A DNA stretch of 56,938 bases from positions 1-56,938 of the forward strand of contig NZ_QLNP01000069.1 in assembly GCF_003261175.1 (NCBI RefSeq), written 5' to 3'. This DNA is from Arthrobacter globiformis (lineage in GTDB: Bacteria > Actinomycetota > Actinomycetes > Actinomycetales > Micrococcaceae). Shown piece after piece: positions 24,379 to 35,008 of the stretch. Under the pieces are notes generated by a model, which did no database searches, was not told where the DNA came from, and saw nothing but the letters and a program-made list of their open reading frames with translations. The position numbers and the translations under genes are program-made. Every line of letters starts with the position of its first letter. Position 1 is the stretch's first letter.

Positions 24379-24421
24379 TTGGACGCTGTGCCGTGGCTGT
24401 CTATGCTGATGCTTGCAAGCA
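24379..24421 (+). promoter_or_regulatory. Promoter and palindromic site of the RibD_C gene at 24467
   Basis: TTGGAC (24379-24384) and TATGCT (24402-24407) are 17 bp apart. A perfect 12-bp palindrome TGCTTGCAAGCA (24410-24421) begins 2 bp after the -10 box, over the expected start of transcription, a typical repressor position. The TTGC/GCAA words recur as a tandem tract before the aminotransferase gene. Confidence 0.5.
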
Positions 24422-24466
24422 AGCTCACCGCGAGGCGACGGCGGTCGCCATGAGGAGGGTAGAGCA

Positions 24467-25078
24467 ATGACTGAAGGCATGGGCCGGGTGGTCTGCGACA
24501 TCACGGTCACGGCAGACGGATACTCGGCCGGGCTCAACCAGACGGAGCAGCGCCCGTTCGGCGGCGACGGCTTCGGCAATGGGCTGCACGCCCGGATGTT
24601 CGAAACTCCCGACGAGAACCGGGCCGAGATCGACCAGATCGTTGCCGCCAAGGCCTTCATCATGGGCCGCAATATGTTCGGCCCGCTGCGTGGTGAATGG
24701 GACCGGCAGTGGAATGGGTGGTGGGGCGACAGTCCGCCCTTCCACGCCCCGGTCTTCGTGCTCACGCACCACGCGCGCGAACCCCAGCCGATGGACGGCG
24801 GCACGACGTTCCACTTCGTCACCGACGGCATCGAATCGGCGTTGTCCAGGGCGAGCGCGGCGGCCGGCGATGGCGATGTGGCGATCGGGGGCGGGGCCAC
24901 CACCATCAATCAGCTCCTCGCCGCTGGCCTGATCGACGAACTGCGCGTGCACATCGCCCCGCTCACGTTCGGCGCGGGCACGCGACTGTTCGAGGGCGTC
25001 CCGCCGCTGAAGCTCGTGCAGGTGAAGTCGCGGGCAGCGAGCCTCGTCACGCACGTGACATACCGCGTGCAGGCTTAG
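24467..25078 (+). CDS. RibD C-terminal / dihydrofolate-reductase-like protein
   Basis: 203 residues of the DHFR-like RibD_C superfamily, NADPH-using reductases related to the C-terminal domain of riboflavin enzyme RibD. The signature is seen near the end: VAIGGGATTINQLLAAGLIDELRV, with FGAGTRLFEG after it; the N-terminal half has ITVTADGYSAG and KAFIMGRNMFG. No deaminase domain is present. ATG 24467 has ribosome binding site GAGGAGGG. The 3' end overlaps the convergent aminotransferase gene by 4 bp. This superfamily is common and rarely characterised, so a flavin or folate role cannot be claimed from sequence alone. Confidence 0.75.
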   Translation: MTEGMGRVVCDITVTADGYSAGLNQTEQRPFGGDGFGNGLHARMFETPDENRAEIDQIVAAKAFIMGRNMFGPLRGEWDRQWNGWWGDSPPFHAPVFVLTHHAREPQPMDGGTTFHFVTDGIESALSRASAAAGDGDVAIGGGATTINQLLAAGLIDELRVHIAPLTFGAGTRLFEGVPPLKLVQVKSRAASLVTHVTYRVQA

Positions 25079-26605: not shown

Positions 26606-27241
26606 ATGGGCGAACCAAGTGCAGAAACGTCATCAGCGGAATTGATGGTGGACCTGATCATCTCCCTGGACGGGTATGCCTCTGCCGAGGGATGGCCGGG
26701 CTGGTGGGGTCTGGAGGGGCCGGAATATCTGGCGTGGCTCGAGGAGGAGGGAAAGAAGAATTACACCTTCCTCCTGGGGGCGAACACTTACCGGGTGATG
26801 TCCAGCATGTCTGCGGAAGCATCGGCCGACCGCTCCGGATTCTCCATGGATGAGGGAGCCGCCCTGACCGGCCTTGACGCAGTTCCCAAGGTGGTCTTCT
26901 CCTCCACCCTGCAGGCACCCCTGACCTGGCCCAACTCGGAGCTGGTGACCCGCGACGCCGTCGAGGCCGTGCGGGAAATGAAACGGACGGGAACCAGCAC
27001 CCTAAGTACCCTCGGGAGCTTAAGCCTTTGCCGGTCACTGCTGACTGCCGGCCTCGTGGACCGGTTCAGGCTGGTCGTTTTCCCGGTGATCACGGGTCGC
27101 ACCGGCCGGGAGCGGATCTATGACGGGTATCCGGACGTCTCGCTGGAGATGGTGAACAGCAGGACCTTCGACGGCCGGCTCCAGCTGCTCGAGTACGTCC
27201 CCACCGTGATTGATGGTCCGCCCGGCGGCGGGCAGAAGTGA
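26606..27241 (+). CDS. RibD C-terminal / dihydrofolate-reductase-like protein (second copy)
   Basis: 211 residues of the same DHFR-like superfamily as the gene at 24467 but only distantly similar to it. It begins with the usual MVDLIISLDGYASAEG block and ends with SLSLCRSLLTAGLVDRFRL then VFPVITGRTG. ATG 26606 has a strong ribosome binding site (GGAGGAGG). It lies 102 bp before the RibA-monooxygenase fusion on the same strand; a separate promoter in that gap suggests independent control. An NADPH-dependent reductase role is likely from family; substrate unknown. Confidence 0.75.
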   Translation: MGEPSAETSSAELMVDLIISLDGYASAEGWPGWWGLEGPEYLAWLEEEGKKNYTFLLGANTYRVMSSMSAEASADRSGFSMDEGAALTGLDAVPKVVFSSTLQAPLTWPNSELVTRDAVEAVREMKRTGTSTLSTLGSLSLCRSLLTAGLVDRFRLVVFPVITGRTGRERIYDGYPDVSLEMVNSRTFDGRLQLLEYVPTVIDGPPGGGQK

Positions 27242-27265: not shown

Positions 27266-27319
27266 ATTACTTGAAGCTTGAACCAACGAGGAGTACCTTT
27301 GGTTTAAGCTTCAAGTAAT
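27266..27319 (+). promoter_or_regulatory. Large inverted repeat with embedded promoter before the RibA fusion
   Basis: Two 20-bp arms (27266-27285 and 27300-27319) are reverse complements with one mismatch, around a 14-bp centre. Each arm contains a HindIII-like core (TTGAAGCTTGAA and TTTAAGCTTCAA), so each is itself a near palindrome. A promoter fits inside: TTGAAG at 27271-27276, 17 bp, TACCTT at 27294-27299. Repressor bound to both arms would cover the -35 box and the start of transcription. The TTGAAGCTTCAA style resembles MarR-family operators. The start codon of the fusion gene is 24 bp after the right arm. Confidence 0.65.
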
Positions 27320-27343: not shown

Positions 27344-29200
27344 ATGACCGCTTGTGTTGAAACCGCTGTGCTGGACGCGTCCCTGCCCATTGCTACCGTG
27401 CGCAGCCAGGTGACTGTGCCGCTGCGTTTTCCCGACGGTTTCAGCACGACGGCCGAGGTGCTGACGTTTCGCGGCCTCGCGGACGGCAAGGAGCACCTGC
27501 TGCTCGCTTTGGGCCAGTGGGAGCAGACGCTCCTCGCCCGTGACGTGCCGCTGGTCCGGCTGCACAGTGAATGCATGACCGGCGACGTGTTCGGCAGCCA
27601 GCGCTGTGACTGCGGACCGCAGTTGCGCGAGGCTGTCGAAGAGATCGCCGCAGCGGGCGGATTCCTGCTTTACCTCCGCCAGGAGGGCCGCGGCATCGGC
27701 CTCTATTCCAAGCTCGACGCCTACGCCCTGCAGGACACCGGCCTTGATACCTATGACGCCAACCTGGCCCTTGGCCACGCCGAGGACGAGCGCGACTACA
27801 CTGCGGCCGCACAGATGCTTGGCGCCCTCGGCGCCGCGAGCATCCGCCTTCTGAGCAACAACCCGGACAAGGCTGACCAGCTGACGGCCCTCGGCATCGA
27901 CGTCGCCGAACAGATTCCCACGGGTGTCTACCTCTCGCCGGCCAACCACGCCTACCTGGCGGCGAAGCGGGACCGCACCGCACATACGCTGGAACTTTCC
28001 AGGGCCGACGTCGGGCATGTGCCGCCGGTGCCGGGTGGCACCGTCCCCAGCCACGACGAGATGCTCAGCCGCGTGGACGAGCTGGTTCCCCGGCTGCGGG
28101 ACCGGGAGGAGGAAACCGAGCGGCTGCGCCGCCTCCCGGAAGCCACCATGAATGACCTCAAGGAGGCAGGCGTGTTCCGGATCCTGGCTCCGCTGGAGGT
28201 GGGCGGATACGGCATGGGCGCGGAAACCTACGCTGAGGTCATCCGGCGGCTTGCCCGGGGCTGTGCGTCAACTGCCTGGACCGCCGGACACCTGATCGAG
28301 CACGTCTGGATGCTGGCCCGCTGGCCCCGGCAGGTCCAGGACGAAGTGTTCGCGGCCGGGCCTGCTCCGCTGGCAGCGGCCACGAGTGCTCCCGTAGGCT
28401 CGGCCAGGAAGGTCCCGGGAGGCTTCTCGATTTCGGGCCACTGGAGCTTCGCGTCGGGGGTCATGCATTCGGATTGGGCCCTGCTGTCGGTGCAGTCCGA
28501 CGGCGTCCGCCTGCAGTGCCTGGTCCCCGTGGCCGAGCTGGAGCTGCTCGATGCGTGGCACACGGCCGGACTGCGGGGGACCGGCAGCAACGATCTCCGG
28601 GCGGTGGACGTGTTTGTTCCGGAGTACCGGGCCATGGACTGGGCGCTGCTGAGCGCAGCGGACAATCCCGGCAGCCGAATCCACCCGGATCCGATGATCC
28701 ACACGCCCATGGCAACGCTGCTGAACCTGGTGGCACCCGCTGCCGCGCTGGGAGCCGCCGAGTACGCCGTCGAGGTCTTCCGGGAAAGGATGCTGGTGCG
28801 CAAGGTGAAGAACACCGTTGACAACCGGCAGGCGGATTCACCGCTGGCGCAGGCCCGCTTCTCGCAAGCCTACGGACTGGCGGCCACGGCGCGACTGCAC
28901 TGGCAGGAGGCTCTCAGCATCGTTTCGTCGTCACTTGAGCGCCAGCCGTCAGGTCTGGCTGAAGTCGAGCGGGCCAAGTACCGACTCTCCCTTGCCCTCA
29001 GCGGCGAGGCAGCGGCGGAAGCAGTGCGGCTCACCGTCTCGGGCTCGGGAGGCAGCGTCCACCGGCTTTCGCATCCGCTGCAGCGGATCCAGCGCGACGT
29101 GAATGTCCTCCTCAACCACCCGACCCTGAGCCTGGATCCGATCCTCGAGCAGGCGGGCCGGGGTCTGCTGGGCCTTGGGTTTACAGTGCCGACTTTCTAG
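27344..29200 (+). CDS. GTP cyclohydrolase II (RibA) fused to acyl-CoA-dehydrogenase-fold monooxygenase
   Basis: 618 residues in one frame. Residues 1-215 are a complete RibA: zinc ligands C77, C88 and C90 in HSECMTGDVFGSQRCDCG, catalytic-region Tyr110 and Arg116 in YLRQEGRGIG, and LSNNPDKADQLTALGI. RibA opens GTP to the first riboflavin intermediate. Residues from about 236 to the end have the acyl-CoA dehydrogenase fold of two-component group D flavin monooxygenases (HsaA-like): RLPEATMNDLKEAGVFRI, ASTAWTAGHLIEHVWMLA, GHWSFASGV and a C-terminal helical bundle. These enzymes use reduced FMN or FAD from a separate reductase; none is adjacent except the RibD_C proteins. ATG 27344 has GAGGA 6 nt upstream. 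The fusion may supply flavin precursor to its own oxygenase, or modify a RibA-derived product; both are inference. Confidence 0.85.
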   Translation: MTACVETAVLDASLPIATVRSQVTVPLRFPDGFSTTAEVLTFRGLADGKEHLLLALGQWEQTLLARDVPLVRLHSECMTGDVFGSQRCDCGPQLREAVEEIAAAGGFLLYLRQEGRGIGLYSKLDAYALQDTGLDTYDANLALGHAEDERDYTAAAQMLGALGAASIRLLSNNPDKADQLTALGIDVAEQIPTGVYLSPANHAYLAAKRDRTAHTLELSRADVGHVPPVPGGTVPSHDEMLSRVDELVPRLRDREEETERLRRLPEATMNDLKEAGVFRILAPLEVGGYGMGAETYAEVIRRLARGCASTAWTAGHLIEHVWMLARWPRQVQDEVFAAGPAPLAAATSAPVGSARKVPGGFSISGHWSFASGVMHSDWALLSVQSDGVRLQCLVPVAELELLDAWHTAGLRGTGSNDLRAVDVFVPEYRAMDWALLSAADNPGSRIHPDPMIHTPMATLLNLVAPAAALGAAEYAVEVFRERMLVRKVKNTVDNRQADSPLAQARFSQAYGLAATARLHWQEALSIVSSSLERQPSGLAEVERAKYRLSLALSGEAAAEAVRLTVSGSGGSVHRLSHPLQRIQRDVNVLLNHPTLSLDPILEQAGRGLLGLGFTVPTF

Positions 29201-29226: not shown

Positions 29227-30441
29227 CTATCCAGGGCCCGTGTTTGCTTGCAGGCCGGTTAAGCCCGTCGGGTCTGTCACGCTGACGGTCCCGGGTGCCT
29301 GGAAGGAGAGGTGCCGGATCCATTCCGGTTCGTGGTCCCGCAGCTGAATCCCCGGCAACGCCGCCGCGGCTTCCTGGACGATGACGCTGGCTTCCAGTTC
29401 GGCGAGCTTGGCCCCGAGGCAGCGGTGGATCCCCGAACCGAAGATGAGGCCGGTTGAAGACCCGCGCCCAGCCTCGGCATACGGCGACGGGTCCGAAGGC
29501 GTACCGCCTCCTGTGATCCGGTTGCCGGACAGTTCAAGGAGGATCTCGGTCCCGGCCTGGATCCGGTCGCCGCCGAGGTCCGTGTCGTGGGCTGCCACGC
29601 GGCGCCAGGTGGGGACGGACGACTCGGTGGCGAGCACATGCCGTACTGCGGACTTGGCGCCGGCCTCCGAGGCCGCTTCCTTCCAGTCCACGGGCGCGGC
29701 ACCCTCCAGCAGCCGGAACAGCGTGGTGCTGATCAGCTGCGTGGTAGTTTCCTGCCCGGCGATCAGCAGGAAGTAGCCGAGCGAGCACATTTCCGTCCCC
29801 GAGAGGCCATGCCCGGCCAGCGACTTGAACAGGTTGCGTCCGGGAGCTGTCACGGATTCGGCCACGAGCCGGCGCAGCCAGACGTAGAACTCGGCGGCGC
29901 TGCGGGCCAGCTCGAGCTGCCGGTCCCCGTCGGGCCAGCCCCAGAACAGTTCCATGGAGTCCAGGCCCCAGCGCTTGAGGTCCGCAAGATCCCGCACGGG
30001 CAGCCCAAGGAGTTCGAGCATCACGACCGCCGGGGGAAACGCCGCCACCACTTCCACGAGGTCCGCGCGGCCGGTGCGGGCGAGCTGGTCCGCGGCGTTC
30101 TCAGCCGCTTCCCGGGCCAGTTCCCGGATGCGCGGTTCCATGGCGGCGACGGTGACCGGCGTAAAAAAGCCAGCCACCACCTTGCGGATTCCGCCGTGCG
30201 ACTCGGTGTCGTTGCTGGCCAGGACCGGAGGCAACGCAAAGCCCACCCGCTGCAGAGCGCGCAGGGCCGGACCCTCCAGCGGGGTCACCGCCACCAGGGC
30301 ATTCGCGGGACTGAAGTCGGCGGGCCGGTGCAGGACATCCCGGACCGATTCCGGGTCCCGCACCACGAAGTACGGGCACCTGGCTTCGTCGGGAGTTTCC
30401 GCAGGAGCCGGCGCCAGCGCCATGCTGGACGCCGGCATCAT
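29227..30441 (-). CDS. Cytochrome P450, last gene of the biotin operon (BioI-like role)
   Basis: 404 residues, soluble bacterial P450. The haem motif is FGSGIHRCLGAKLA with Cys341, the I-helix oxygen motif is IAGQETTTQLI, and the ExxR-type region of the K helix is degenerate in appearance (SSVPTWRRVA). ATG 30441 is chosen because it overlaps the bioD stop as ATGA, a 4-bp overlap; an upstream ATG at 30462 is also open. This ties it to bioB-bsaP-bioA-bioF-bioD. In Bacillus, P450 BioI cleaves fatty acyl-ACP to give pimeloyl-ACP for BioF. A similar role is inferred here from the operon alone, since no bioC, bioH or bioW lies in this operon. It converges with the RibA fusion gene, 26 bp away. Confidence 0.85.
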   Translation of the reverse strand: MMPASSMALAPAPAETPDEARCPYFVVRDPESVRDVLHRPADFSPANALVAVTPLEGPALRALQRVGFALPPVLASNDTESHGGIRKVVAGFFTPVTVAAMEPRIRELAREAAENAADQLARTGRADLVEVVAAFPPAVVMLELLGLPVRDLADLKRWGLDSMELFWGWPDGDRQLELARSAAEFYVWLRRLVAESVTAPGRNLFKSLAGHGLSGTEMCSLGYFLLIAGQETTTQLISTTLFRLLEGAAPVDWKEAASEAGAKSAVRHVLATESSVPTWRRVAAHDTDLGGDRIQAGTEILLELSGNRITGGGTPSDPSPYAEAGRGSSTGLIFGSGIHRCLGAKLAELEASVIVQEAAAALPGIQLRDHEPEWIRHLSFQAPGTVSVTDPTGLTGLQANTGPG

Positions 30442-31115
30442 GCGGGCAGCCCGTTCAGCCATGCTGCCGCGCCGGTGCGGAAATCGGCCGGGGAGAGTTC
30501 CGAGGCCTGCTCGGGAAGTGCCCCAAGGAGGGGGACCCGCAGTGTCCCGAGCACCTGCCGGTTGCTGTGGTGCACTGCGTCGGGGCTGACGGGCCAGCTG
30601 CCGAGCACGACGCCGAGGACGTCGAGCCCGCGCCTGGACAGCGCCTCGAGGGTCAGCACCGTGTGGTTCAGCGTCCCGAGGCCGGGCCGGGCGACGAGCA
30701 CGAATGCAGCTGCCAGCAGCGAGCCCAGGTCAGCCAGGGTGCCGCCGTTGGAATCCAGTTCCACGAGCAGACCCCCGGCGCCCTCTACCAGGACGTGGTC
30801 GTGGGCCTCGGCGAGTTCACGGATCCGCCCTGCGTGCGCAGCCAGCGCTGACAGCGGAGTCCCGTCGATGGCAGCAGCAGCGACCGGAGCCAACGGCTGC
30901 TGCAGCACGACGCCGGCTTCGGCGGTCAGGGCTCCGGCGAGCCGGACAATTTCGGCCGCGTCGGAATCGCCGTCTGCGGCACCTGACTGGCACGGCTTGT
31001 AAACCGCGACGCTGCGTCCCATTCCGTGCAGGACGGCGGCGAGGGCCGCCGTCGTCATGGTTTTGCCGACGCCAGTGTCCGTTCCGGTGACCAGAATGAA
31101 GGGGGACAGGCTCAT
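30438..31115 (-). CDS. bioD: Dethiobiotin synthetase BioD
   Basis: 225 residues; ATP-dependent carboxylation of 7,8-diaminononanoate to close the ureido ring of dethiobiotin. P-loop GTDTGVGKT at 10-18, KPCQSGA with the conserved Lys, and VEGAGGLLVEL. Start overlaps the bioF stop by 4 bp and the stop overlaps the P450 start by 4 bp, so it is tightly coupled in the biotin operon. Length is typical. Confidence 0.93.
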   Translation of the reverse strand: MSLSPFILVTGTDTGVGKTMTTAALAAVLHGMGRSVAVYKPCQSGAADGDSDAAEIVRLAGALTAEAGVVLQQPLAPVAAAAIDGTPLSALAAHAGRIRELAEAHDHVLVEGAGGLLVELDSNGGTLADLGSLLAAAFVLVARPGLGTLNHTVLTLEALSRRGLDVLGVVLGSWPVSPDAVHHSNRQVLGTLRVPLLGALPEQASELSPADFRTGAAAWLNGLPA

Positions 31116-32281
31116 GGAAGTTCCTCCAAAATGCCGCGCAGCATTGCGCAGCTGTCTTCGATGTCTTCAGGCGTGAGTGTGGCGCGGGAGGTGAGCCGCA
31201 GCCGCGAGATCCCGTCCGGAACGGACGGCGGGCGGAAGCACCCGACCCGGACGCCGGCGCGGCGCGCGGACTCCGCGGCGGCCAGCGCGGATTCCGCGGA
31301 CGGCATGGGGATGGACTGGACGGCCCCGGCCGTCCGGTCGGGGGCGGTGCCGAACCGGGCAAGGGCCGGGGCGAGCCCTGCCGCAAGCGCCGCCGCGTTG
31401 CGGTGGACGGACGCCGACCGCCATGGTTCGTCCCTGATGATCCGCGCCGCGGCGAGGGCCGCTGCCGCGGACGCCGGCGCCAGTCCGGTGTCGAAGATGA
31501 AGCCGCGGGCCCGGTTGAGGAGGTGTTCGCGCAGAAGCGCGGATCCCAGGACGGCGCCGCCCTGGCTGCCCAGGGCTTTCGACAGCGTGGCCGTCACGAT
31601 GACGTTTGCGTGCCCGGCAAGGGCGGTCCCGGCCACCGAGCCGCGGCCCCGGAAGCTGCCGGCGCCGGTGACGCCGAGGCTGTGGGCCTCGTCGATGAGC
31701 AGCACGGCGTCGTGCTGCTCGGCCAGCGCCAGGAGGTCAGCGAGCGGTGCCTCGTCGCCGAGGACGCTGTAGACGGATTCGACGGCGATCATGGCCCGCG
31801 GTTCTTTGCGGCCGGCGAGCAGGCGGCCGGCTTCGCCAACGCTGTTGTGGGCAAATGATTCGGTGCGTGAGCGGCTGAGCCGGAAGCCGTCGATCATGGA
31901 GGCATGGCAGTGTTCGTCCGCGACGATGAGGGTCCCGGGGCCGCCCAGCGCTGTGATCACCCCGATGTTGGCCAGATAGCCGGAGGAGAAGACCAGCGCA
32001 GATTCCATCCCGGCCAGCGCGGCCAGTTCCTGCTCAAGCTCCAGATGCAGCTGGGTGGTTCCGGCGACCAGGCGCGAGGACGTGGCACCCGCGCCCCACC
32101 GCGACGCGGCCTCCGCGGCTGCCCCGGCAACCCGCGGGTCCGTTGAAAGGCCGAGGTAGTCGTTGCTGGCCAGGTCGATGAACTGTTCGTGCGCGGCGCG
32201 GGGGAGCGGGCGGCGGACCTGGCCCCGGCGTTCCCTGACTGCCGCCTGCCGCTCGAGCCACTGTGTCATCGCGCCGCTCAT
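31112..32281 (-). CDS. bioF: 8-amino-7-oxononanoate synthase BioF
   Basis: 389 residues, alpha-oxoamine synthase family, PLP-dependent condensation of pimeloyl-ACP (or -CoA) with alanine. Typical blocks are SNDYLGLSTDPRV, FSSGYLANIGVI, DEAHSLGVTG and the PLP lysine in TLSKALGSQGG. It overlaps bioA upstream and bioD downstream by 4 bp each. Its need for a pimeloyl donor is what makes the P450 at the end of this operon of interest. Confidence 0.93.
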   Translation of the reverse strand: MSGAMTQWLERQAAVRERRGQVRRPLPRAAHEQFIDLASNDYLGLSTDPRVAGAAAEAASRWGAGATSSRLVAGTTQLHLELEQELAALAGMESALVFSSGYLANIGVITALGGPGTLIVADEHCHASMIDGFRLSRSRTESFAHNSVGEAGRLLAGRKEPRAMIAVESVYSVLGDEAPLADLLALAEQHDAVLLIDEAHSLGVTGAGSFRGRGSVAGTALAGHANVIVTATLSKALGSQGGAVLGSALLREHLLNRARGFIFDTGLAPASAAAALAAARIIRDEPWRSASVHRNAAALAAGLAPALARFGTAPDRTAGAVQSIPMPSAESALAAAESARRAGVRVGCFRPPSVPDGISRLRLTSRATLTPEDIEDSCAMLRGILEELP

Positions 32282-33654
32282 GAGGCACTCCCGGAGTGGG
32301 CGGGAACCCGTCCATGGATACCGGCTTCATGAACTTCGGCGACGGCTGCGGTCATTCCAGCCGTGATTTGTGCGGTGTCCGCCGCGGTGCTGATGTACGG
32401 CGGCATGGTGTAGACAAGGTTCCGGAACGGGCGGACCCAGACGCCGTGGCGGATGGCTGCCGCGGTGACGGCGGTGACGTCGACGGCGTCGTGCAGCTCG
32501 ATGACCCCGACGGCGCCAATGGTCCGCACTTCCCGGACGGCCGACAGTTCCCGGGAAGGTGCCAGCCCCAACGCGAGGTCAGCGCCGATCCGGGCGACGT
32601 CGGCCCGCCAGCGGCCGGTCCCGATAATGCCAAGGCTGGCGTTGGCGACGGCACATGCCAGCGGGTTGCCCATGAAGGTAGGGCCGTGGAGCAGGGCACC
32701 GGCCTGGCCGCCGGAGACTGCTGCAGCCACCTCGGCGGTGCAGAGCATGGCGGCGAGGGTCAGGTACCCGCCGGTCAGGGCCTTGCCCACGCACATGATG
32801 TCGGGCACCACGCCGGCGTGATCGGCCGCGAACAGCTCGCCGGTGCGGCCAAAGCCGGTGGCGATCTCGTCGAAGATGAGCAGCAGACCGTGCCGGTCCG
32901 CGACTTCCCGGAGTGCTGTCAGGCATTCGGCCGGGTACGCGTGCATCCCGCCGGCGCCCTGCAGCACGGGCTCGACGACGATCGCGGCCAGTTCCGCGGC
33001 GTGCGTGGCCGCCAGGCCCGCCACGTCGGATGCCCACGCCTGGACAATCTCCGGGGTTGCCGAAGCCGCCGCCGGAGGGCGGGGCGCAAAGAGGTTGCCG
33101 GCGAGCAGCCCGGGGAAGGCCGAGTGCATGCCGTCCACGGGATCGCACACCCCCATGGCCGCGAACGTGTCGCCGTGGTAGCCGCCGCGGAGGCTGAGGA
33201 ACCGCTGCCGCCGCGGGTGGCCGGCCGCGGTCTGGAACTGCACCGCCAGCTTGAGCGCAACCTCGACGGCGACCGAGCCCGAGTCCGCGAGGAACACCCG
33301 CTCCAGCCCGGACCGGCCGGGGGCGCCCGGGGCCATGGCCACCAGGCGCTCGGCCAGTTCCACGGCCGGGGCATGGGTCAGCCCGCCGAACATGACATGG
33401 CTGAACTTCGCCAGCTGCTCTTTGGCGGCGGCATCGAGCACCGGGTTGCGGTAGCCATGGATCACGGACCACCACGAGGACATCGCGTCGATCACCTCGT
33501 GGCGGGTGCCGTCTTCGCTGCGGAGCCGCAGCCGCACGCCGTCGGCCGCCTCAACCTCCCACAGCGGAAGGCCGGGGGATGCCGGCGCGTAGGGGTGCCA
33601 CAGCCGTGCGCGGTCCCGCTGGATGAGGTCAGTCTGCTCCGAATCCGGCGTCAC
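32278..33654 (-). CDS. bioA: Adenosylmethionine-8-amino-7-oxononanoate aminotransferase BioA
   Basis: 458 residues, class III PLP aminotransferase using S-adenosylmethionine as amino donor to make 7,8-diaminononanoate. BioA marks are LWHPYAPA near the start, [42 protein letters not shown] and the PLP lysine in [17 protein letters not shown] 33654 is chosen: it overlaps the bsaP stop as GTGA and gives the family N-terminus; the longer frame to 33777 would lie over bsaP. It overlaps bioF by 4 bp. Confidence 0.93.
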
Positions 33655-33962
33655 GGGACCAGCACCCCGTGGCGGGAACATTCCGCTGACCAGCCCAGCG
33701 GCGTGACCTGGACCTTCATCCGGCGCCGGCAGGCGGCGCAGTAACGCGGCGGTTCCATTGCAAGGCGTGCGCCGCACTCCCGGTGGGCGGACGACGGCGG
33801 CCCGTCGCCGCCGTCGTACGGCTCACCACAGTGGCCGCAATAGGCGGCCCCGCTGGTTGAGCCTGGGGCCACGACCGCCGGGTTCCCTGGCCTAGCCTGC
33901 GAGGTTAGGGGGCGGTTGGGGATCGGAACCCCGCTGGTTGAGCCCGTCGAAACCCCGGTCAT
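33651..33962 (-). CDS. bsaP: Biotin synthase auxiliary protein BsaP, N-terminus extended by a repeat
   Basis: 103 residues. The C-terminal part from about residue 41 ([42 protein letters not shown]) matches the small cysteine-rich protein that assists BioB in actinobacteria, probably through iron-sulfur cluster supply. As read from ATG 33962 it overlaps the bioB stop by 4 bp and carries a low-complexity N-terminus encoded by two copies of an interspersed repeat. GTG 33872 would give 73 residues, nearer my memory of the family length, and would leave the repeat as spacer. The stop overlaps bioA by 4 bp. Identification rests on recalled motifs and operon position. Confidence 0.75.
33848..33957. 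repeat. Two copies of a Micrococcales interspersed repeat motif
   Basis: CCCCGCTGGTTGAGCC occurs at 33848-33863 and 33929-33944; the second continues as CGTCGAAACCCCG to 33957. The reverse complement (GTTTCGACGGGCTCAACCAG) resembles a motif scattered through many Arthrobacter and related genomes as I recall. Here it lies at the bioB/bsaP junction. Confidence 0.7.
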
Positions 33963-35008
33963 AGCGTCTTCTGGAGTTCCTTGATGGGCATGTTCAGCTC
34001 GACCAGCAGGTTGAGGTCGGCCGTAGCTGGCCGGCCAAGCGTGGTGAGGTAGTTGCCGACGATCACGGCGTTGATGCCGCCGAGCAGCCCGTTCCGTGTA
34101 CCGAGGTCGCCGAGGGTGAGCTCGCGGCCGCCGGCATAGCGCAGCACCGTCCGGGGCATGGCGAGCCGGAAGGCGGCGATGGCGCGCAGGGCGTCCTTGC
34201 CGTCCATGATGCCCTGGTTTTCGAGCGGGGTTCCGGGGCGGGGGTTGAGGAAGTTCAGCGGCACCTCGTGGGGTTCGAGGGCGGCGAGCTGGGCTGCAAG
34301 TTCCGCGCGCTGTTCAAGCGTTTCGCCCATGCCGATCAGGGCGCCGCAGCACAGTTCCATGCCGGCTGCCTTGACCATGTTGCAGGTTTCGAGGCGTTCC
34401 TCGTAGCTGTGCGTGGTGACCACTTCGGGGAAGTAGCTGCGCGCCGTTTCCAGGTTGTGGTTGTAGCGGTGCACGCCCCATTCGGCGAGCTGGTCTACCT
34501 GGCGCTGGGTGAGCATCCCGAGCGAGCAGGCGATGTTGATGTCCACGGCTTCGTTGATGCGGTCGATCGCGAACTTGATCTGGTTCATCAGCTTGATGTC
34601 GGGGCCGCGGACGGCGGCGACGATGCAGAACTCTGTGGCTCCGGTGGCGGCGGTTTCCTTGGCGGCTTTGACGAGTTCGGGAATGTCGAGCCACACGCCG
34701 CGGACGGGGGAGTCGAACAGGCCGGACTGGCTGCAGAAGTGGCAGTCCTCGGGGCAGCCGCCGGTCTTGATGGAGATGATGCCCTCCACTTCGACGTCCT
34801 CGCCGCAATGCCTGACCCTGACCTCGTGGGCCAGCTGGAGTGCCGCGGGCAGGGCCTCGTCCGGAAGGCGGAGTACTTCCTCAAGCTGCTCCTGGGTGAG
34901 CCCGATGCCGTCCTCGAGGACCTGCTGCCTGGCGGTTTCGAGGATGGGGAAAATGGCCGGGATGGTCGCGTGGCTTGTGGCTTCGCTCGCGTCTGCCTGA
35001 ATCGTCAT
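33959..35008 (-). CDS. bioB: Biotin synthase BioB
   Basis: 349 residues, radical SAM enzyme inserting sulfur into dethiobiotin. The radical SAM cysteines are in [14 protein letters not shown], and the conserved Asn-His block [12 protein letters not shown] and [11 protein letters not shown] are seen. It is the first gene of the operon bioB-bsaP-bioA-bioF-bioD-P450. ATG 35008; a ribosome binding site (AAAGGAC) is visible upstream. The stop overlaps the bsaP start by 4 bp. Confidence 0.95.

Follow-up and report, generated by a model that had tools for sequence, protein, structure and literature searches.

Riboflavin-synthesis genes have been described beside oxidative genes in Rhodococcus jostii RHA1 and R. 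ruber, in which pathway VIII, whose substrate is not known, comprises an acyl-CoA dehydrogenase with a type 2 C-terminal domain, a DHBP synthase/GTP cyclohydrolase II, an NADH-FMN oxidoreductase and an extradiol dioxygenase; the available part of that report (PMC6498646) also lists a PheA/TfdB-type hydroxylase and does not name the acyl-CoA-dehydrogenase-type protein as a hydroxylase. In the oxygenase HPAH-C2, His120 stabilises the phenolate, and Ser171 hydrogen-bonds the flavin N5 and stabilises the flavin hydroperoxide (PMC10696468, available excerpt). In engineered yeast, a pathway that depends on a flavin monooxygenase gave more product when RibA was overexpressed together with the transporter FLX1 (PMC10958861, available excerpt). 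Here we analyse a 56,938-nucleotide stretch of Arthrobacter globiformis (contig NZ_QLNP01000069.1, positions 1 to 56,938; hereafter the window), in which a single gene encodes GTP cyclohydrolase II (RibA) and a group D flavin oxygenase in one polypeptide. This fusion is real, conserved, built from known parts and undescribed in searchable literature: no description of it was found in the open-licence literature searched, and the available parts of PMC7764795 (on RosR), PMC9836352, PMC8342789 and PMC12855090 had no direct bearing on it.

The gene is a single plus-strand frame with zero internal stops, and its parts are placed as follows.

27344..29200, plus strand: RibA-oxygenase fusion gene, 618 amino acids (aa), ATG at 27344, stop TAG at 29198-29200
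27407..27997, plus strand: GTP cyclohydrolase II (RibA) domain, aa 22-218, from NCBIfam NF001591 and alignment with 2bz0
27572..27613, plus strand: zinc cysteines C77, C88 and C90, from the 2bz0 alignment; invariant in 34/34 distinct intact fusions
27722..27793, plus strand: catalytic-region residues Y127, D148 and R150, from the 2bz0 alignment; invariant in 34/34 fusions
27998..28048, plus strand: variable inter-domain linker, aa 219-235, of low identity and low predicted local distance difference test score (pLDDT), with unrestrained non-synonymous change
28049..29176, plus strand: group D flavin oxygenase domain, aa 236-611; best chain HsaA 2rfq, also by Foldseek
28301..28303, plus strand: His320, equivalent of HPAH-C2 His120 by alignment; invariant in 34 fusions
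28454..28456, plus strand: Ser371, equivalent of HPAH-C2 Ser171 by alignment; invariant in 34 fusions
29117..29119, plus strand: His592, equivalent of HPAH-C2 His396, from alignment and conservation across intact fusions

A first-pass annotation of this stretch had read the gene as one protein joining GTP cyclohydrolase II to a group D oxygenase, and the exact coordinates, the strand and the single frame were all confirmed. In the first half, Pfam places PF00925 (GTP_cyclohydro2) at aa 35-192 (E 6e-55; 185.6 bits against a threshold of 23.3), and NF001591 scores 253.2 bits against a cut-off of 148. The zinc cysteines and the catalytic region, which that annotation held to be retained, are indeed present when the protein is aligned with E. 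coli GTP cyclohydrolase II (2bz0): C77, C88 and C90 correspond to the cysteines of its HSEC and RCDC motifs, and Y127, D148 and R150 to Y105, D126 and R128, which we take to be catalytic. From these intact active-site residues we infer that the RibA half is a GTP hydrolase whose product is the pyrimidine at the committed step.

For the second half, previously described as a complete acyl-CoA-dehydrogenase-fold oxygenase, Pfam domains, structure model and Foldseek agree. Two domains of that fold, PF02771 (aa 250-327) and PF08028 (aa 464-593), are recognised, and the best solved chains are HsaA (2rfq, E 3.8e-48), HPAH-C2 (2jbr) and XiaF (5lvu). The AlphaFold2 model of the fusion, built from 58 rows, has a mean pLDDT of 86.9 and a predicted template modelling score of 0.65; only residues 1-12 and 221-231, the latter within the linker, fall below a pLDDT of 50, and the mean identity of aa 219-238 among distinct intact fusions is 0.31. 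All of the best 50 Foldseek rows match the oxygenase half, with 2rfq at the top (E 2.8e-25, target TM 0.90) and HsaA, XiaF and C2 all at E 2e-22 or better, so the assignment to group D is supported by sequence and by fold. His592 is the counterpart of C2 His396, which we assume to be a functional residue. Since His320 and Ser371 are kept, hydroxylation of a phenolic ring via a flavin hydroperoxide appears the likeliest chemistry for this half.

A contig scan with the oxygenase half returned 40 loci, 35 from Micrococcaceae and 5 from distant bacteria (Neobacillus and Gammaproteobacteria) at 33-34% identity to it. Of the 35 from Micrococcaceae, 25 have both halves in one full-length frame; taken over all loci, our filter retained 34 distinct intact fusions. 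The ten loci that are not intact as assembled differ in kind: RibA and oxygenase are neighbouring separate frames in L043, L059 and L065, the last with a further frame change within the oxygenase; the halves occupy two frames in the metagenome assembly L049; the oxygenase is kept with only a remnant of RibA in L044 and with none in L053; and L064, L066, L067 and L068 are broken or partial in the assembly. No stop or frameshift separates the halves in the window, and the domain pair, sought in relatives as the first-pass annotation had advised, does recur there; this recurrence of the fused frame rules out a sequencing or assembly artefact.

In the genomes sampled, the fusion occurs only in Arthrobacter and its relatives, a single genus-level group. 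Among 59 sampled genomes, its own included, 37 belong to this group; the fusion is intact in 11 of these and broken in one more (G030). A scan of 345 family genomes, scoring the best 3 candidates per genome, gave 15 matches in the group at E 1e-55, 14 fused and one split (G368), and no RibA-oxygenase pair outside the genus at that threshold. G387 was scored as fused from one 614-aa frame; in this fusion (L118 5779-7581) RibA appears shortened at its C-terminal end ahead of a short linker, and RibA function may be in the course of being lost. Of 394 genomes of the class (best 4 candidates each), 40 contained a match to the oxygenase with an E value no higher than 1e-50, the best identity beyond the group being 39%; RibA was present within the 1.5-kb flanks of 0 of 22 out-of-group oxygenase loci (L199-L220), a search that would have missed RibA fused to another oxygenase type. 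A match was found in 534 plasmid records, none of which covers 80% of the protein at one place, and among the best 30 of the 534 RibA of the fusion subtype occurs alone.

Selection was estimated as the ratio of non-synonymous to synonymous substitution rates (dN/dS) over 193 pairs limited to an oxygenase dS of 0.05-1. The RibA half has a median of 0.13 and the oxygenase half one of 0.17, values that indicate purifying selection and from which we conclude that both halves are kept; the linker, unlike both halves, is under no restraint on non-synonymous change.

Beyond what had been noted before, the fusion promoter is predicted to hold two MarR-type operators with the consensus TTACTTGAAGCTTCAAGTAA, laid out around putative promoter boxes.

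27267..27286, plus strand: operator 1, TTACTTGAAGCTTGAACCAA, a MarR-type palindrome over the -35 box with 3 mismatches to TTACTTGAAGCTTCAAGTAA
27271..27276, plus strand: putative -35 box TTGAAG, read from the sequence, 17 bp ahead of the -10 box
27294..27299, plus strand: putative -10 box TACCTT, read from the sequence; TACGGT or TACTGT in many homologues
27299..27318, plus strand: operator 2, TTGGTTTAAGCTTCAAGTAA, at and downstream of the -10 box, with 3 mismatches to the palindrome

The upstream regions of homologues share this layout of a -35 box, about 17 bp, a -10 box and two palindromes mostly 32-33 bp apart, and a site like operator 1 is present in most homologous promoters. Among 47 homologous upstream regions, 28 hold a site at <=3 mismatches, 44 at <=4 and 46 at <=5, against 0.02%, 0.04% and 0.06% of first-order resampled control regions at the same three limits. 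The loci devoid of a working RibA keep a weaker operator (5 mismatches in L044, 4 in L053). Judged by these operators, RibA and oxygenase are probably under one switch.

The 4.88-Mb genome of this strain contains three sites at <=3 mismatches, two at the fusion and one on contig C74, and the reversed pattern used as a control gave none there. The C74 site ends 55 bp ahead of a gene for a two-domain VOC dioxygenase-like protein; all 11 genomes of the group that were searched contain its 20-mer, among them three without the fusion (G001, G010 and G012), and the gene that follows was read in G000, G002 and G015 and, behind a close variant of the site, in G290. In relatives the operator stands ahead of genes for a LigB dioxygenase (G161, G013), DoxX (G009, G020), a PIG3-type quinone reductase (G012), SnoaL-like proteins (G161, G290) and NpdG-like proteins (G012, G192, G161, G290, G013), and it also precedes a MarR gene; one gene of each kind was verified by Pfam or NCBIfam and the others were assigned by resemblance, and the flanking genes were read for part of the operator-like sites. 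No operator at <=4 mismatches was found at the stand-alone RibA loci L104-L116 and L120-L122, nor at six flavin-reductase loci; L123, whose contig ends within RibA, has one.

In 15 of the 35 Micrococcaceae loci the fusion has a divergent MarR gene as its neighbour, and none lies in the window. The NpdG-like operator site of G012 lies between the NpdG-like gene and a MarR gene whose product is 86% identical to the MarR protein encoded on C40 of the present genome. That the regulator in this strain is a MarR-family repressor is only inferred.

We consider it somewhat probable that the fusion is an inducible aromatic- or quinone-detoxification hydroxylase whose RibA half adds flavin synthesis at induction. 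One polypeptide would carry two enzymes on a flexible tether. The RibA half would convert GTP to the pyrimidine that commits it to riboflavin synthesis; the other half, acting as oxygenase component in a two-component system of group D, would take reduced flavin mononucleotide (FMN) or flavin adenine dinucleotide from a separately encoded flavin reductase. It would hydroxylate an aromatic compound that is phenolic or forms a quinone, and the product, probably a catechol or hydroquinone, would then be opened by a ring-cleavage dioxygenase. A MarR-family repressor bound at the two operators around the promoter would hold the gene off, and induction would be joint with that of the VOC dioxygenase-like gene bearing an operator of identical type. 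The point of the RibA half would be a flavin supply raised in step with the oxygenase that consumes reduced flavin. The suggestion of the first-pass annotation that the protein feeds flavin to its own oxygenase survives in this weaker form of on-demand flavin synthesis, the better supported of the two functions it had offered; RibA makes only the committed first intermediate, and since several enzymes separate this product from FMN, flavin is unlikely to be channelled directly from one half to the other.

Several observations weigh against such an inducible hydroxylase. The RibA half scores 185.2 bits with TIGR00505 (ribA), below the cut-off of 205.85. Ser146 of C2 aligns with Ala346 of the fusion, and the corresponding change in C2 is reported to lower hydroxylation (PMC10696468, same excerpt), Ser146 being a feature of C2 and not general to group D. 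The window has no flavin reductase of family PF01613; six such genes occur in the genome, which has an HsaB-type reductase on C73. In favour of the hydroxylase, an HsaB-type reductase is found within about 2.5 kb of the fusion in L012, L013, L046 and L082, though only there. The best named match of the VOC protein, catechol 2,3-dioxygenase, reaches 39 bits against a cut-off of 320. Operator-like sites also stand beside unrelated genes (L133, L140, L142, L149, L158, L160, L192 and L193), and a looser pattern matched one unrelated site of the present genome, on C31. The nearest homologue of the divergent MarR proteins in this genome, that of C40, is 47-49% identical to the seven compared, and its gene lacks an operator, the closest approach to one within 200 bp having 8 mismatches. 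Finally, RibC, RibF and RibH are given as the primary rate-limiting enzymes and RibA as inhibited by reduced flavin in the available part of PMC10958861, which weakens the argument from flavin supply.

Among the alternatives, the one that survives best, and that we regard as a real though less than probable possibility, is that co-expression alone matters and the covalent link brings no benefit of its own; it is compatible with an inducible detoxification hydroxylase and overlaps with it in probability. RibA and oxygenase are adjacent unfused genes in L059, L065 and G368 (L117/L084), the linker is unconstrained, and Rhodococcus has similar unfused parts (PMC6498646, available part). Set against this are the fused state kept in 25 of the 35 loci and a RibA tree of 81 rows, for which the tool gave a long-branch warning. 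In this tree the RibA of the fusion falls in a 64-row clade separate from 17 housekeeping-type rows (support 100/99), and a 46-row clade within which the fused rows lie has modest support (93/74). Inside that clade a single group (99/93) unites the unfused pairs (L084, L059 and L065) with a RibA that stands alone on a plasmid (L101); since they nest among fused rows, a split after fusion appears likelier than several separate fusions, with one weak branch (80/16) on the path to them. We think it unlikely that the covalent link itself matters, with RibA serving as an on-site, feedback-gated valve in a flavin-making assembly through which an inducible aromatic oxygenase would govern the supply of its cofactor, or, more boldly, that the RibA pyrimidine is handed to the oxygenase to yield a new flavin-related metabolite.

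Rather less probable still is a catalytically idle RibA half, acting as an assembly or regulatory domain that, for example, binds GTP to control the oxygenase. Beside the unmet TIGR00505 cut-off, it is favoured by the presence of a housekeeping enzyme that would make RibA activity in the fusion dispensable: the genome has three RibA domains, on C35, on C42 and in the fusion, and the check for a housekeeping ribA proposed in the first-pass annotation found one on C35, in a rib operon read as ribE-ribB-ribA-ribH (ribB by Pfam). The C42 copy (L002 1429-2070), a second one of housekeeping type that adjoins an acyl-CoA carboxylase gene, groups with the 17 housekeeping-type rows of the tree. Invariance of the zinc and catalytic residues and a RibA dN/dS somewhat below that of the oxygenase speak for a working enzyme, and RibA encoded as a separate adjacent gene in one group of the family fits poorly with a mere in-chain domain. 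Equally improbable is an oxygenase of the XiaF or HsaA type acting in a biosynthetic or steroid-like pathway instead of in phenol or quinone detoxification: HsaA and XiaF are indeed the nearest solved structures, but at 222.3 bits the protein falls well short of the NCBIfam HsaA equivalog cut-off of 450, the genes around the fusion in the window were not recognised as a steroid or biosynthetic cluster, and the neighbours of the fusion differ from genome to genome.

The weakest alternative, and the other function offered by the first-pass annotation, makes the RibA product or a derived pyrimidine the oxygenase substrate, on the way to a flavin- or pteridine-related metabolite with a RibD_C reductase providing a further step; fused enzymes often share an intermediate, a RibD_C gene lies just upstream and stand-alone RibA relatives stand beside a RibD-type deaminase (L104, L108, L110) or a RibD_C reductase (L016/L120), but we hold it to be very improbable, given that L044 and L053 keep oxygenase and operator without a working RibA, which argues against the RibA product as substrate, that His320 and Ser371, the phenol-hydroxylase residues, are kept, that the operator is shared with aromatic and quinone genes, and that close RibD_C homologues are near few of the loci.

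The upstream gene in question is the following.

26606..27241, plus strand: RibD_C-family reductase gene (PF01872, 88.9 bits), 102 bp upstream of the fusion

A close homologue lies within about 3 kb of the fusion in 4 of the 35 loci (L035, L037, L044 and L063), and one is near it in further genomes (L012, L077, L078 and L118); as this is a minority of loci, its membership in the system is doubtful, and the case for it as a pathway partner is weak. The window contains two RibD_C-family reductase genes less than 3 kb upstream, at 24413-25078 and 26606-27241, both on the plus strand, with an aminotransferase gene between them. Convergent with the fusion, on the minus strand at 29227-35008, lies a biotin-type set read from Pfam matches as a P450, a BioD-like protein, class I/II and class III aminotransferases and a radical SAM protein with BATS domain; the P450 gene (29227-30462) and three more of these genes accompany the fusion in 6 of the 35 loci (L034, L035, L037, L042, L046 and L064). 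Riboflavin catabolism, which the nearby P450 had brought to mind, was rejected: the P450 belongs to the biotin-type set, and a paper on riboflavin catabolic genes (PMC12746152) nowhere uses the word cyclohydrolase in its available part. Elsewhere a LigB gene lies downstream of the fusion (L047, L048 and L067). In 9 of the 35 loci a gene for an NmrA-type NAD(P)-binding protein, which we take to resemble the quinone reductase QorB, is near it.

Stand-alone RibA of the fusion subtype was also found in other genera. It overlaps a RibD-type deaminase gene in L104 (4409-5601, by Pfam), L108 (4613-5787) and L110 (5251-6755), the last two by similarity, an arrangement that would represent an accessory partial riboflavin operon; in L016/L120 it stands beside a RibD_C reductase. 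On the Streptomyces plasmid NZ_CP108679.1 (L102 9959-10624) it lies among lantibiotic dehydratase, AMP-binding and condensation-domain genes, in surroundings that look like a biosynthetic cluster. The lone RibA of the Paenarthrobacter plasmid pCZY (L101 11959-12675), in a catabolic-looking region, is nested among unfused Arthrobacter pairs.

Cofactor supply is usually regarded as housekeeping, and here the committed step of flavin synthesis shares a polypeptide with an oxygenase of the flavin-consuming type. If the proposed function is correct, the fusion would be a natural counterpart of the engineering practice of raising flavin synthesis to drive flavin monooxygenases, and would make it possible to test cleanly whether induced detoxification is limited by the supply of flavin. 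The predicted operator, in turn, may serve as a handle on an aromatic- or quinone-response regulon in Arthrobacter.

Compared with described systems, the oxygenase half has the fold of HsaA, HPAH-C2 and XiaF at 25-29% identity by structure comparison and the equivalents of C2 His120 and Ser171, but these solved relatives match that half alone, and the fusion does not reach the HsaA equivalog score. As in RibA and RibBA, a whole GTP cyclohydrolase II domain with its zinc and catalytic residues is present; the partner in RibBA is DHBP synthase, of the same pathway, whereas here it is an oxygenase of a flavin-consuming kind. An operator common to detoxification-type genes recalls the MhqR, YodB and CatR regulons of Bacillus and Staphylococcus, where a MarR-type repressor likewise acts at a palindromic operator and ring-cleavage dioxygenases and quinone reductases are controlled jointly (PMC6798810, available part); the MhqR operator given there, TATCTCGAA-aTCGAaATA, differs by eye from that of the fusion, and a flavin monooxygenase is added here. 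A Rhodococcus opacus plasmid (NZ_CP130954.1) carries an oxygenase gene whose product has the same Pfam domains at 32% identity; it lies 29 bp ahead of a riboflavin-pathway gene whose product is unfused and has a DHBP-synthase domain but no GTP cyclohydrolase match; this protein (L221 10197-11225), encoded directly after the oxygenase gene, has a C-terminal part without Pfam match. Rhodococcus pathway VIII, as far as the available text describes it, has similar parts as separate genes in one cluster, whereas in the present genome RibA and oxygenase form one chain, and the dioxygenase-like gene, at another place, shares the operator. By this analogy, the fusion looks like a covalent form of the Rhodococcus association between riboflavin gene and oxygenase.

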